A stretch of 33,293 nt of DNA from the IMG/VR virus record IMGVR_UViG_3300023184_000345, positions 1 to 33,293 of that record. One strand, given 5' to 3'. Shown in pieces: positions 19,351 through 33,293 of the stretch. The stretch is from a virus. Position numbers and translations under genes: made by a program. How positions within the stretch are numbered: the first letter of the stretch is position 1; each line of letters opens with the position of its first letter. Below the pieces are notes generated by a model. The model saw only the letters and a list, made by a program, of their open reading frames with translations, did no database searches and had not been told where the DNA came from.

Positions 19351-19611
19351 TTACACATTTTCGTTTTGTAATGCAAGAAAACCTTTTTTTGCGCCATCCA
19401 CTAAAGACCCTTTCGCGCCACAAGACAAACAATGAAAGTTTCCTTTGCTATGGTCAGCCAATAAACTAGCCGTAATTTCTTTATGCCAAGGGCATCTGGC
19501 AATTGAGTTCACCATGCGACTATGGTTTGGCATGGGTTTTTCAATCAAATCCCCTTTATATTTGTTTGGGCCGTAAAAGGTACTTAAAATCTTAGAAAAT
19601 TTAGTTTCCAT
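19351..19611 (-). CDS. Stand-alone CHC2 zinc-finger protein (primase N-domain-like)
   Basis: 86 residues with ARCPWHKEITASLLADHSKG and NFHCLSCGAKGS: Cys-x2-His and Cys-x2-Cys spaced as in the CHC2 finger of DnaG-type primases (CPxHxExTPSxx...CxxCxxxGd). The catalytic TOPRIM part is absent here and no other primase domain is seen in the window. It may help recognise initiation sites with the host primase or act as a modifier. Start behind GATAGGAGCATAGT. An intercistronic hairpin lies just upstream of that site. Confidence 0.75.
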   Translation of the reverse strand: METKFSKILSTFYGPNKYKGDLIEKPMPNHSRMVNSIARCPWHKEITASLLADHSKGNFHCLSCGAKGSLVDGAKKGFLALQNENV

Positions 19612-22221: not shown

Positions 22222-22455
22222 ATGAACACTGACAAGTCTGGAGAGGGAAGGATACTCAGTCTATCCACCCTTGGAGAACCTATGTCTGAAGAAGAGTTTG
22301 AGGACAAAATGAACACCTACGAACTCGACCAACAGTATGCTGAGTACATCATGGAGCGCAGAAATGTTGGCAATGGAGAGATGCTAATCCGATTGATGGA
22401 GAGAGGCGAACTCTATGAGGATTTCAAAGAACACATCATGTTTGGCAGCAAATGA
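22222..22455 (+). CDS. Small acidic protein, paralogue of the gene at 23973
   Basis: 77 residues. After a 20-residue leader (MNTDKSGEGRILSLSTLGEP) the core reads EEEFEDKMNTYELDQQYAEY, IMERRNVGNGEMLIRLMERG and ELYEDFKEHIM. The same core, changed at many positions, is in the 60-residue protein at 23973 (EHQFEAAMRSF..., YIMDRASLENGDGIFRLMNS, YYEGFKEKM), so the two are paralogues. TTAATAGGAGTCAATA precedes the ATG. Overlaps the next gene by ATGA. Function unknown. Confidence 0.75.
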   Translation: MNTDKSGEGRILSLSTLGEPMSEEEFEDKMNTYELDQQYAEYIMERRNVGNGEMLIRLMERGELYEDFKEHIMFGSK

Positions 22456-23132
22456 TTCACTATCATGGAACCCCAATATCACCCATCAAAGCCATAGAAA
22501 CAATGGGTGGCAAGCATTTCTGTGTGTCCTATGCCAGACCTGATGACTTACAGAGATGTTTGCGCTTGGGACAGTCTTTGATGCTGGACAACGGCGCTTT
22601 TAGTGCAAAAACCCGTGGTTTGACCTTTGATATCAATGGATTCTACGAATGGGTTGAGCCTTTGCTGGTGCATCCACACTGGGCTGTAGTGCCTGATGTG
22701 ATTGATGGGACTGTTGAGCAACAGAAGGAAATGGTCAAAACTTGGCCCTTTCGCAAAGAGTTTGGCATTCCTGTCTGGCATCTAGGATTGCCAATTTCAT
22801 ACCTTCTTGAACTTTGCGACACCTGGGGACGAGTTTGCTTTGGATCGGCTGGTGAATTCTGGCAAATCGGCACTACCAAGTGGTGCGGCAAGATGGATGA
22901 AGCGTTCAATGCCATGACAAACACCTTTGGGCGGCAATTGCCTTGGGTGCATGGACTGAGGATGCTAGGACTGTCTTCTGGCCCTTGGCCCTTGGCTAGT
23001 GCAGATTCCACCAATGTGGCGCTACACCATGCCGAAAAACAGGTTTGTGCGGGTTGCATGGCAAAGCGCATAGATTCCACCAATCCACCAACCCTCTGGG
23101 AACAAAAACCATTACAGGAGATTTTGATTTGA
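22452..23132 (+). CDS. dpdA: DpdA-like 7-deazaguanine DNA transglycosylase (TGT-like)
   Basis: 226 residues. Motifs in TGT order: YHGTPI (4-9), LMLDNGAFS (43-51) with Asp46 matching the DSGGFQ aspartate, VVPDVIDG (79-86), WHLGLP (109-114), FGSAGEFW (130-137) matching GGLAVGE, WVHGLRMLG (165-173) matching the RYLMGVG block, and SADSTN (183-188) with Asp185 in place of the nucleophilic Asp. H192/H193 with C199 and C202 may be a remnant of the zinc site. TGTs exchange guanine for preQ bases in tRNA; DpdA relatives do this in DNA. It directly precedes a VUT-type transporter, TTGA-overlapped, which points to deazaguanine modification of phage DNA. Short for a TGT (about 370), normal for phage versions I know. 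Confidence 0.75.
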   Translation: MIHYHGTPISPIKAIETMGGKHFCVSYARPDDLQRCLRLGQSLMLDNGAFSAKTRGLTFDINGFYEWVEPLLVHPHWAVVPDVIDGTVEQQKEMVKTWPFRKEFGIPVWHLGLPISYLLELCDTWGRVCFGSAGEFWQIGTTKWCGKMDEAFNAMTNTFGRQLPWVHGLRMLGLSSGPWPLASADSTNVALHHAEKQVCAGCMAKRIDSTNPPTLWEQKPLQEILI

Positions 23133-23614
23133 TTTATCCAGCAATTTACATAGCCGCCCTAGTTACTGCCAATCTGTTGGTGGCATGGTTTGGCCCTTGG
23201 TTTAGCCCTATAAACGCCTTTGTTCTCATTGGATTGGACTTGTCATTGAGGGACAAACTCCATGAAGAATGGAAAAACGACAAACTGGTCTTGAAAATGG
23301 GTGGATTGATTGCGACAGCAAGTGTGGTTTCCTACTTGTGGAATCCAGCGGCAGGGCCAATTGCTTTGGCCTCATTTCTGGCATTTGCCCTTGCCATGAG
23401 TGCCGACACAATCGCCTATCATTTCTTGCGTGATAAGCCTTGGATGATTCGCTCAAATGGGTCAAATATTGCTGGGGCTGCCGTTGATTCATTGGTGTTT
23501 CCCACAATTGCTTTTGGCGGGTTGTTGTTGCACATTGTTGCTTTGCAATTCGTTGCCAAGATTGTCGGCGGGTTGATTTGGAGCAAAATTCTAAGCAGGA
23601 GACAAGATGTTTGA
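23129..23614 (+). CDS. VUT/YhhQ-family queuosine-precursor transporter
   Basis: 161 residues from TTG 23129, with AGGAG eight bases upstream; the stop of the transglycosylase overlaps it (TTGA). Five to six membrane helices. Motifs: AALVTANLLVAWFGP (residues 9-23), GLDLSLRDKLHE (35-46), AMSADTIAYHFLR (89-101) and RSNGSNIAGAAVDSLVFPTI (108-127), which fit the VUT (YhhQ) family of preQ0/preQ1 importers, where the last motif is the conserved core. It would bring the host-medium or host-derived precursor into the cell for the enzyme encoded just before. The ATG-initiated longer reading starts inside dpdA and lacks a site. Confidence 0.8.
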   Translation: MIYPAIYIAALVTANLLVAWFGPWFSPINAFVLIGLDLSLRDKLHEEWKNDKLVLKMGGLIATASVVSYLWNPAAGPIALASFLAFALAMSADTIAYHFLRDKPWMIRSNGSNIAGAAVDSLVFPTIAFGGLLLHIVALQFVAKIVGGLIWSKILSRRQDV

Positions 23615-26229: not shown

Positions 26230-26405
26230 TATTTTTTGCATGATGCGGCCCCCTGATAATATGCCCGAACATTATCCCGGTGTTGCTGTGCTTGTTCTTT
26301 GGTATCGAATCGGCCACCGATAGGGGTTTGGTGTGGCCCCCTGACAATAAACCAGCCCCCTAGTAATTTATTGTGGACAATTTTAATTGTTTTGGTCTTA
26401 TGCAT
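26229..26405 (-). CDS. Small basic hypothetical protein (58 aa)
   Basis: From ATG 26405: MHKTKTIKIVHNKLLGGWFI then VRGPHQTPIGGRFDTKEQAQ and QHRDNVRAYYQGAASCKK. 'GGWFIVRGPHxTPIxGRFxTKExAxxH' looks like a tiny beta-beta-alpha protein known from phages. GGGGGTTCATT precedes the ATG. Overlaps the gene before by 8 bases. Confidence 0.7.
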   Translation of the reverse strand: MHKTKTIKIVHNKLLGGWFIVRGPHQTPIGGRFDTKEQAQQHRDNVRAYYQGAASCKK

Positions 26406-27156
26406 AATGAACCCCCTTAATTTGGGTGAACCCGGTGATATCCCGTTTAGCCTTACCCTTTGCATACAATGCAACAACAACGGCCTTAGGTTCAATGTGT
26501 CGCACATCGGTGTTGTCCCCATCAATGACGGGCCAGCCCCTAAAATTGTCCGGGATATCCGCTTGTTTTTGGAAAACTACAGCAACCCTAGAATTATTGG
26601 GATTAGTCAATCCCTTGATCGATATGGGTTTTGGGGTAATCGCAGAAAAACTATAGGTAAGGTCATAATTTCCCGGGGTTTTACCGTTTAGGTTTCTGCC
26701 TGGGTGTTTTGTATAGTCATAAAACTGTACATCGGGAAACAATTCGAAGATGTTTTTGCCATCATGCACAATTAAATTCTCATAAGGGATATCACTTGTG
26801 CCATTAGGTCGCACCAAAGGGATAAACCCTTGTTTTTTGGCCTTGTTTTGTAATGTCCACACATCCGCAGCCAAAGACAACAAAAACGATTGTTGATGGT
26901 CATAGTAAAACCGGGTTTTGGCTATTCGTGCGTTTTGTACGCTATTAAATGCACCACGGCCCGCCGATTCTAGGCATCCAGCCATGCAGCCAGCCAGCGC
27001 AGCCATGGCGCAGATAGTGTGATCGGGTTTTAGGTAGACAATCCCGGTAAGGTAACCTATGGTTTCCCCTTTGATTGTCTTTGCGCTTGATTCGCCTAGA
27101 ATTGTTTTGTAGGTCAATCCAAGGTTTTTGATGATGGTTTTGTACGGATTTTTCAA
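26398..27156 (-). CDS. Conserved phage protein with Cys motif, possible TIM-barrel enzyme
   Basis: 252 residues from TTG 27156, with AATAGGTG upstream. Order of motifs: AKTIKGETIGYLTGIVYLKP (25-44), C49-x7-C57-x3-C61, CLESAGRGAFNSVQNARIAK (61-80), VRPNGTSDIPYE (115-126), FPDVQFYDYTK (140-150), YDLTYSFS (164-171) and VIDGDNTDVRH (210-220). I know this set from many phage and some bacterial proteins of unassigned function: strands ending in loop motifs NGTSD, YDYTK and DGD suggest a barrel with an active site, and the Cys cluster a metal site. Earlier ATG readings overlap the next gene and have no site. Function not known to me. Confidence 0.75.
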   Translation of the reverse strand: MKNPYKTIIKNLGLTYKTILGESSAKTIKGETIGYLTGIVYLKPDHTICAMAALAGCMAGCLESAGRGAFNSVQNARIAKTRFYYDHQQSFLLSLAADVWTLQNKAKKQGFIPLVRPNGTSDIPYENLIVHDGKNIFELFPDVQFYDYTKHPGRNLNGKTPGNYDLTYSFSAITPKPISIKGLTNPNNSRVAVVFQKQADIPDNFRGWPVIDGDNTDVRHIEPKAVVVALYAKGKAKRDITGFTQIKGVHYA

Positions 27157-27183
27157 AGTAACACCTATTGAAGAATGATTGAA

Positions 27184-27197
27184 GGGGCCGCAGCCCC
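27184..27197 (-). other. Intercistronic hairpin, copy 2
   Basis: GGGGCCGCAGCCCC, identical to 19630-19643, between the stop at 27206 and the ribosome site of the 252-residue gene. Perfect 5-bp stem with CGCA loop. Confidence 0.7.
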
Positions 27198-27205
27198 GGT
27201 TAAAT

Positions 27206-27418
27206 TTAAACCTTGGAAACGGACTCAAGGCCCGATTCACCAATGCCAGCCACATACCCAATGAAGAACATTACTTCATGGTCTTTGCCAATGATTTCGC
27301 TGTTATTGGTGAATACCGCACTAGTGAAGAATTGAACCGCGCCATTAGTGGCTTGATACGCTGCCAGCCACTTGTTCAGGGTTGAAATGTCTTGAGTGAA
27401 TCGTGCTTTGATAATCAT
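27206..27418 (-). CDS. First gene of the right - strand operon, small hypothetical protein
   Basis: 70 residues from ATG 27418, with AATAGGCG upstream: MIIKARFTQDISTLNKWLAA then YQATNGAVQFFTSAVFTNNS and DHEVMFFIGYVAGIGESGLE. A small mixed fold, no membrane helix long enough to span. As the promoter-proximal gene it may be expressed early. No family recognised. Longer in-frame reading upstream crosses the palindromic motif and promoter and is rejected. Confidence 0.65.
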   Translation of the reverse strand: MIIKARFTQDISTLNKWLAAYQATNGAVQFFTSAVFTNNSEIIGKDHEVMFFIGYVAGIGESGLESVSKV

Positions 27419-32190: not shown

Positions 32191-33293
32191 ATGGACATCG
32201 CCGATCTTGAGCGTAAGCTAGGAATTGATGGAATCTCTGCTGAACAGCAGATGGAGATCATTACTGCTTTGCAACAGTCTGCCGCAGAGAAGATTGCCAA
32301 GGCCAAGAGCGAGTCTATTGGCAAGGGCGCTGAACTTGTTATCCAAGGCTTGAAGAAGATCAAGTCAGACATGGAGCAAAAGTTTGCTCAATTGAATGGC
32401 GAGATTCAGAGCAAAGTTGCCTCTGTACAAGATGGACAGGATGGCAAGAATGGAAAAGATGGACGAGATGGAAAGCAAGGGCCAGCAGGGTCAACGGGGC
32501 CAGCAGGACGAGATGGTGTTCCTGGGCGTGATGGAGTTGATGGTTCTGACGGCACTGGTGTTTCCGCTGCTCGCATTGATTTTGATGGTAGCCTTGTCAT
32601 CACTCTTGATGATGGTCGTGAGATTAATGTTGGTGAGGTTGTTCCTTTTGATGTTGCTGAACGCATCAAAGTTATTACCAATGGTGGCGGTACTTCTCAG
32701 TCTGTACTTGATACTCTAACAAGCCTTCAGGCTCAAATCAGTGCTATCAGTGGTGGTTTAAGCTATCAGGGAACTTGGAACGCATCCACAAATACGCCTA
32801 CGCTTACATCAAGTTCAGGCACAAGCAACTATTACTATGTTGTCAGCGTTTCTGGCTCAACCAATCTCAATGGCATCACTGATTGGGTGGCAGGAGATTG
32901 GGCAATCTACAACGGCACTGCTTGGCAAAAGATTGACCAGACAAACTTGGTTATTTCAGTTGCAGGGCGTACTGGTGCTATTACTTTGACCACTGCTGAT
33001 ATTAGTGGTTTGGGGACAATTGCTACCCAAGCGGCAAGCAGTGTCTCTATCACTGGTGGTTCAATCACAGGTATCACAGATTTGGCAGTTGCTGATGGCG
33101 GTACAGGTGCTTCTACTGCTTCAGGGGCTAGGACAAACCTTGGTTTGGTCATAGGAACAGATGTTCTGTCTCCAAGTGGCTCGGCTGCAAGTCTGACCTC
33201 TTTCCCAACTTTCAACCAAAACACCACTGGTACAGCATCTAATGTGACGGGTACTGTTGCGGTTTTGAATGGTGGTACAGGTGCAACCACTAC
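32191..33293 (+). CDS. Tail fibre protein with collagen-like segment, N-terminal part
   Basis: Open from ATG 32191 (one base after the portal stop) to the window end; continues at 1-402. Residues 1-75 form charged helices (AEQQMEIITALQQSAAEKIA). Residues about 82-122 hold some 13 Gly-X-Y triplets (DGKNGKDGRDGKQGPAGS, GRDGVPGRDGVDGSDG), a collagen-like triple helix. Then a beta domain (IDFDGSLVITLDDGREINVG), LSYQGTWNAST with YVVSVSGSTN and GDWAIYNGTAWQKID, the usual phage fibre module, followed by GGTGASTASGARTNLGL repeats. Trimeric fibre that binds the host (family knowledge). Confidence 0.9.
   Translation, partial: MDIADLERKLGIDGISAEQQMEIITALQQSAAEKIAKAKSESIGKGAELVIQGLKKIKSDMEQKFAQLNGEIQSKVASVQDGQDGKNGKDGRDGKQGPAGSTGPAGRDGVPGRDGVDGSDGTGVSAARIDFDGSLVITLDDGREINVGEVVPFDVAERIKVITNGGGTSQSVLDTLTSLQAQISAISGGLSYQGTWNASTNTPTLTSSSGTSNYYYVVSVSGSTNLNGITDWVAGDWAIYNGTAWQKIDQTNLVISVAGRTGAITLTTADISGLGTIATQAASSVSITGGSITGITDLAVADGGTGASTASGARTNLGLVIGTDVLSPSGSAASLTSFPTFNQNTTGTASNVTGTVAVLNGGTGATT
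33163..33293. repeat. Terminal direct repeat, right copy
   Basis: Matches 1-131 at 130 of 131 positions (mismatch t33167 versus a5). Removing one copy gives a circle of about 33,162 bp and keeps the fibre frame intact. Confidence 0.9.

Follow-up and report, generated by a model that had tools for sequence, protein, structure and literature searches.

At the locus examined here, within a 33,293-base IMG/VR virus record that was analyzed in full (the window), two open reading frames (ORFs) overlap on the same strand, the first coding for a predicted base-exchange enzyme and the second for a predicted membrane transporter (Table 1). Both frames, the overlap that joins them, and every motif listed for their products in an earlier, sequence-only reading (LDNGAFS, FGSAGEFW, VHGLRMLG, and SADSTN in the 226-amino-acid protein; RSNGSN and VDSLVF in the 161-amino-acid protein) were recovered. 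Matches to phrog_887 (queuine tRNA-ribosyltransferase; E, 8e-46) for the first product and to phrog_4899 (E, 2e-38) for the second place both ORFs beyond chance. A 4-nt NTGA junction was the dominant arrangement among relatives, in which the VUT gene begins with either TTG or ATG, and the Shine-Dalgarno sequence ahead of VUT was kept as well. Among the relatives compared, dN/dS was ~0.03 for dpdA and 0.07 to 0.17 for VUT, values that point to purifying selection on both genes. Given the conserved Shine-Dalgarno sequence, junction, and starts, together with the low dN/dS ratios, we conclude that both ORFs are real, selected genes. PADLOC identified no defense family.

Table 1 Features of the window discussed in the text, with positions counted from its first base
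Feature	Position	Strand	Description
dpdA-like ORF	22452..23132	+	ATG start, 226 aa; predicted DpdA-like (TGT-superfamily) base-exchange enzyme
VUT-family (QPTR/YhhQ-like) ORF	23129..23614	+	TTG start, 161 aa; putative 7-deazapurine importer
Shine-Dalgarno sequence, AGGAG	23116..23120	+	Within the 3' end of dpdA, 8 nt ahead of the VUT TTG
TTGA stop/start overlap	23129..23132	+	dpdA stop TGA and VUT start TTG; translational coupling
Gene product 88 family protein	26398-27261	-	PF17338, 8.5e-37; phrog_1617
Stand-alone primase zinc domain	19351-19611	-	86-aa ORF; DnaG-type CHC2 zinc ribbon alone, PF01807, 1.8e-8

The 226-amino-acid protein had been placed in the TGT/DpdA family, and both its phrog_887 match and the signature residues that it shares with DpdA of phage 9g agree with that placement. 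It matched no Pfam and no NCBIfam profile. A tblastn search with this protein matched 120 phage records, and phmmer identified DpdA of Salmonella phage 7-11 as a homolog (E, 2.6e-29). When a profile of the family was aligned with 9g DpdA using hhalign (probability, 96; E, 3.5e-9), window residue D46 was paired with D72 of 9g (in LDSGAFSAYT), H110 with H141, H167 with H196, and D185 with D215. Across 34 viral sequences with identities down to 38%, H5, D46-N47-G48, P81-D82, H110, G131, H167, R170, and D185-S186 were invariant; the equivalents of Asp46 and Asp185, on which the family claim had been made to depend, are thus present. A 2019 survey used the conserved H196 to divide 9g-type DpdA from DpdA2 (PMC6884629). 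DpdA2 proteins (nt-1 type) are missing that histidine, whereas the window protein retains it as the invariant H167; this residue, the catalytic aspartates D46 and D185, and homology to an experimentally supported DpdA place the protein with the 9g type.

An AlphaFold2 model of the DpdA-like protein formed a complete (beta/alpha)8 barrel (pLDDT, 82.4; pTM, 0.81) in which the invariant residues H5, S26, D46, D82, H110, G131, H167, and D185 end successive strands. We take TGT to carry D102, D156, Q203, G230, and D280 in the same order as these strand-end residues. In Foldseek searches, the model resembled phage queuine tRNA-ribosyltransferases (probability, 1.00; E, 3e-7; TMq, 0.66), consistent with a fold of the TGT type. 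Against the PDB, it retrieved barrels in general, with TGT (1q2r) ranking 36th, so the structural check proposed along with the sequence-only reading was favorable for the viral enzymes and unfavorable for the PDB. No match was obtained when hhalign was run against ten bacterial TGTs, a weak negative, because some frames in the small TGT alignment were over-long. The protein had neither a profile match to bacterial TGT (PF01702) nor a conserved zinc site. A CxxC at residues 199 to 202 was considered as a zinc site and dropped because Cys199 and Cys202 are present in close relatives only. A sequence-based profile search of the PDB returned nothing for the DpdA-like or the VUT protein. Judged by its sequence, the 226-amino-acid protein is a member of a short DpdA group, and the comparisons made here give it no direct tie to bacterial TGT.

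The downstream product scored 55.2 bits against Pfam Vut_1 (PF02592; 1.4e-14), above the gathering cutoff of 27.2, so its proposed VUT/YhhQ affiliation holds at the level of that family. Its Vut_1 membership and six predicted helices are shared with YhhQ/QPTR (COG1738, PF02592), from which it differs in being only 161 amino acids long and in scoring under the equivalog cutoffs of TIGR00697 (39.4 bits; cutoff, 50.95) and NF008406 (23.5 bits; cutoff, 252). The AlphaFold2 model consisted of six long helices (pLDDT, 95.3). A Foldseek comparison of this model with the PDB, also part of the proposed checks, came out negative: there was no significant match, and RibU S-components appeared weakly. The protein is a short Vut_1 member and, by extension from its family, a putative queuosine-precursor transporter for preQ0 or preQ1.

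No genes for making such a precursor were seen in the window. A Pfam six-frame search of the window and 20 related records, which detected its controls and in which some of the 21 records may be fragments, gave no hit above cutoff for FolE (GTP cyclohydrolase I), QueC, PTPS/QueD, radical-SAM, or QueF domains; as there was no radical-SAM match in the window, QueE was not found there either, and the earlier remark that FolE, QueC, QueD, and QueE are missing agrees with this search. In Caulobacter phage DMCA, a 98-amino-acid ORF directly 5' of dpdA (L104, 3705 to 3998) is annotated as a 6-carboxytetrahydropterin synthase; it had no match in PHROGs, and the annotation looks doubtful.

Several known systems come close to this arrangement. 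Enterobacteria phage 9g has a DpdA of the same enzyme family, although of 317 rather than 226 amino acids, and it carries a FolE-QueD-Gat-QueC-QueE operon where the window has a transporter. Pantoea phage Vid5 and Enterobacter phage EC151, like the window, combine a Vut_1 transporter and a DpdA in one phage, but their transporter supplements a biosynthesis operon, whereas VUT is the sole supply gene in the window; import (salvage) of preQ0 or preQ1 alongside the operon was proposed for both phages (PMC6266253, PMC8310023). The singleton-DpdA systems of Salmonella phage 7-11 and Pantoea phage MED16 (group 3 of Hutinet 2019) resemble the window in having a short homologous DpdA (39% identical to the window protein in the case of MED16) and no preQ0 genes. 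Unlike the window, MED16 has no VUT beside dpdA, and none is annotated beside dpdA in 7-11.

A search for the same gene pair in related phages, suggested in the sequence-only reading, found it to be recurrent and in both gene orders. Among near relatives in IMG/VR, all 60 distinct informative VUT loci had dpdA immediately 5' of VUT, in the same orientation. Counted from dpdA, VUT lay beside it at 102 of 114 distinct informative viral loci (88 downstream and 14 upstream); the 60-locus and 114-locus sets sample nearest relatives and not all phages. With the pair present in no fewer than 100 distinct viral sequences, its description as an unusually lean form of the system does not hold. VUT and dpdA are adjacent in the annotated phages PEAT2, Tbat1_6, AB3P2, Opt-719, and RCIP0319, are close together in Pam5 and X2_30, and, by coordinates, adjoin in ECO111 5-P, LHE71, Phc, and Lg3. 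In Pectobacterium phage PEAT2, Acinetobacter phage AB3P2, and others, the two genes share a strand and have no further pathway genes annotated nearby, as in the window; these pairs differ in that VUT often comes first and is 39 to 49% identical to that of the window, and the literature searched does not discuss them as a cassette. The VUT partners of dpdA were of clearly different sequence types, with identities down to ~25%. On a DpdA tree of 91 rows scored for VUT downstream, upstream, or none, at least 23 changes of arrangement were required, some of which may be losses; the well-supported branches forced at least 11 changes for VUT downstream and at least 9 for VUT upstream. Because it recurs in many unrelated phages, the pair is probably a compact salvage kit.

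We consider a two-gene salvage cassette, coupling precursor import to DNA base exchange, to be the best explanation of the locus and a likely one. It draws together what can be read from the sequences, namely, both family memberships, the tight coupling, the selection on both genes, the missing biosynthesis genes, and the repeated pairing. The VUT protein would sit in the host membrane and make more of a 7-deazapurine base, of the preQ0 or preQ1 class, available to the cell. The short DpdA would then swap guanine for that base in DNA, with the phage genome as the most likely target. We infer the substrate, the inward direction of transport, DNA as the target, and the benefit of the pair.

The association of dpdA with VUT is strong but not obligatory. 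VUT was missing at 12 of the 114 viral dpdA loci, including one with a 92% identical DpdA (L028), and, at informative cellular dpdA loci, which are probably prophages for the most part, it was present at 10 and absent at 56 of 66. Phages mEp021 and MagusPhagus have VUT next to a DNA methyltransferase gene without dpdA, and QueC was found in most host genomes searched. These observations would favor a model in which DpdA uses preQ0 made by the host and VUT has a separate role, whether in supplying another nucleobase, in export, or in a membrane or superinfection function. We regard this model as unlikely, since the pair has formed repeatedly, with either gene first and with VUT proteins of plainly distinct sequence types, and since a function is known for characterized Vut_1/QPTR proteins (PMC11130926). 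A VUT gene that is not obligatory also fits the salvage cassette: a supply gene would matter only in hosts with too little precursor, and the fact that a preQ0-making host could supply DpdA alone would explain why VUT is optional.

Two observations on neighboring methyltransferase genes are recorded here. In mEp021 (L258, 2490 to 4226) and in L259, VUT, a phrog_474 "phosphofructokinase"-like ORF, and a DNA methyltransferase gene form a tight operon, for which a different use of the imported base is possible; the gene directly 3' of VUT in L258 (3468 to 4223), annotated as a DNA cytosine methyltransferase, does code for a methyltransferase (phrog_757, 8e-87) and is not a mislabeled dpdA. A C5-cytosine-type methyltransferase gene lay just upstream of dpdA in 6 of 12 VUT-less loci (L028, L036, L037, L050, and L060 among them) compared to 8 of 100 VUT-bearing loci; we treat these counts, which were not deduplicated, as a lead.

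Cellular genomes offered a further comparison. Full QueC was found in 6 of 10 genomes with the dpdA-VUT pair and in 46 of 50 with dpdA minus VUT (Fisher P = 0.02, with taxonomy uncontrolled); stated conversely, QueC was lacking in 4 of 10 and 4 of 50, with few genomes in all. All four QueC-lacking hosts with the pair are metagenome-assembled genomes (MAGs) (L271, L272, L274, and L295, each without full-length QueC), so we treat this contrast as a lead only. One of them, L271, a Devosia MAG, encodes a full TGT, in line with what a queuosine-salvaging host should have. The closest cellular locus, on a 9.7-kb contig of a betaproteobacterial MAG, has the pair at 83% identity; the match was too weak to name a host, and an assignment on this basis was rejected.

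RNA could be the target instead, with VUT bringing in a precursor of queuosine and the DpdA-like protein serving as a small TGT of the phage that modifies tRNA while infection is under way. PHROGs and viral records do label the family queuine tRNA-ribosyltransferase, and characterized VUT proteins serve tRNA queuosine (PMC11130926). However, the nearest measured relatives, phages 7-11 and MED16, contain dADG in their DNA, at 0.02% of G in 7-11 (PMC6884629) and 0.13% of G in MED16 (PMC8306585). In addition, the 9g DpdA histidine is retained, no zinc site is conserved, the CxxC being limited to close relatives, and 14 of 15 sampled cellular genomes already encode a full TGT. An RNA target is thus improbable. 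Hitchhiking of the two genes in a moron or replication-recombination cassette, with no joint function, is very unlikely: NinB, RusA, and VRR-NUC type genes also recur near dpdA, but VUT was the commonest family within 1.5 kb of it (39 of 90 dereplicated loci by BLAST, against 14 for the second commonest, a nearly threefold difference), overlaps dpdA by 4 nt, and has re-paired with it many times.

For the salvage cassette, the low dADG content of the singleton-DpdA relatives also bears on what the modification might achieve. Most of the restriction enzymes tested still cut MED16 DNA (PMC8306585), and, with so little dADG in 7-11 and MED16, restriction resistance cannot be assumed. Of the salvage proposal as originally made, the two families, their coupling, and the idea of a functional pair have stood, while its rarity and the replacement of guanines so as to block restriction have not. 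More tentatively, and with somewhat less than even confidence, we propose that the pair is a widespread "import and insert" module in which a translationally coupled VUT enables a DpdA that has no biosynthesis genes to bring about substantial modification of phage DNA, using a 7-deazapurine that is environmental or host-salvaged, even where the host is unable to make preQ0, and that this module has been assembled repeatedly, in either order and with different VUT types.

The component parts and the idea of uptake were already published between 2018 and 2021. The 2019 survey found singleton DpdA phages to be the largest group, left the source of their precursor open, and reported that YhhQ was uncorrelated with any phage group (PMC6884629). 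YhhQ has also been noted in haloviruses HCTV-1 and HCTV-16 (PMC8651126), and a QPTR-TGT fusion has been reported in bacteria (PMC11130926). In the literature searched, we found no description of dpdA and VUT on their own as a module; they may have been described as such elsewhere. The new element is how strong the two-gene coupling is and how often it recurs, contrary to the published lack of correlation. Across many phage lineages, the close VUT subfamily almost always adjoins a short dpdA, and this makes the precursor question for singleton phages testable: VUT-bearing phages are predicted to modify far more G than the 0.02 to 0.13% of VUT-less singletons. If they do, and if the modification depends on external precursor, protection of phage DNA would hinge on a vitamin-like nutrient exchanged within the community.

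At the ends of the window, positions 1 to 131 and 33163 to 33293 form a 131-nt direct repeat (99% identical) inside a repetitive, tail-fiber-like reading frame. A weaker copy lies at positions ~135 to 260. The repeat may mean that the genome is complete and circularly permuted, or that a tandem repeat has been collapsed.
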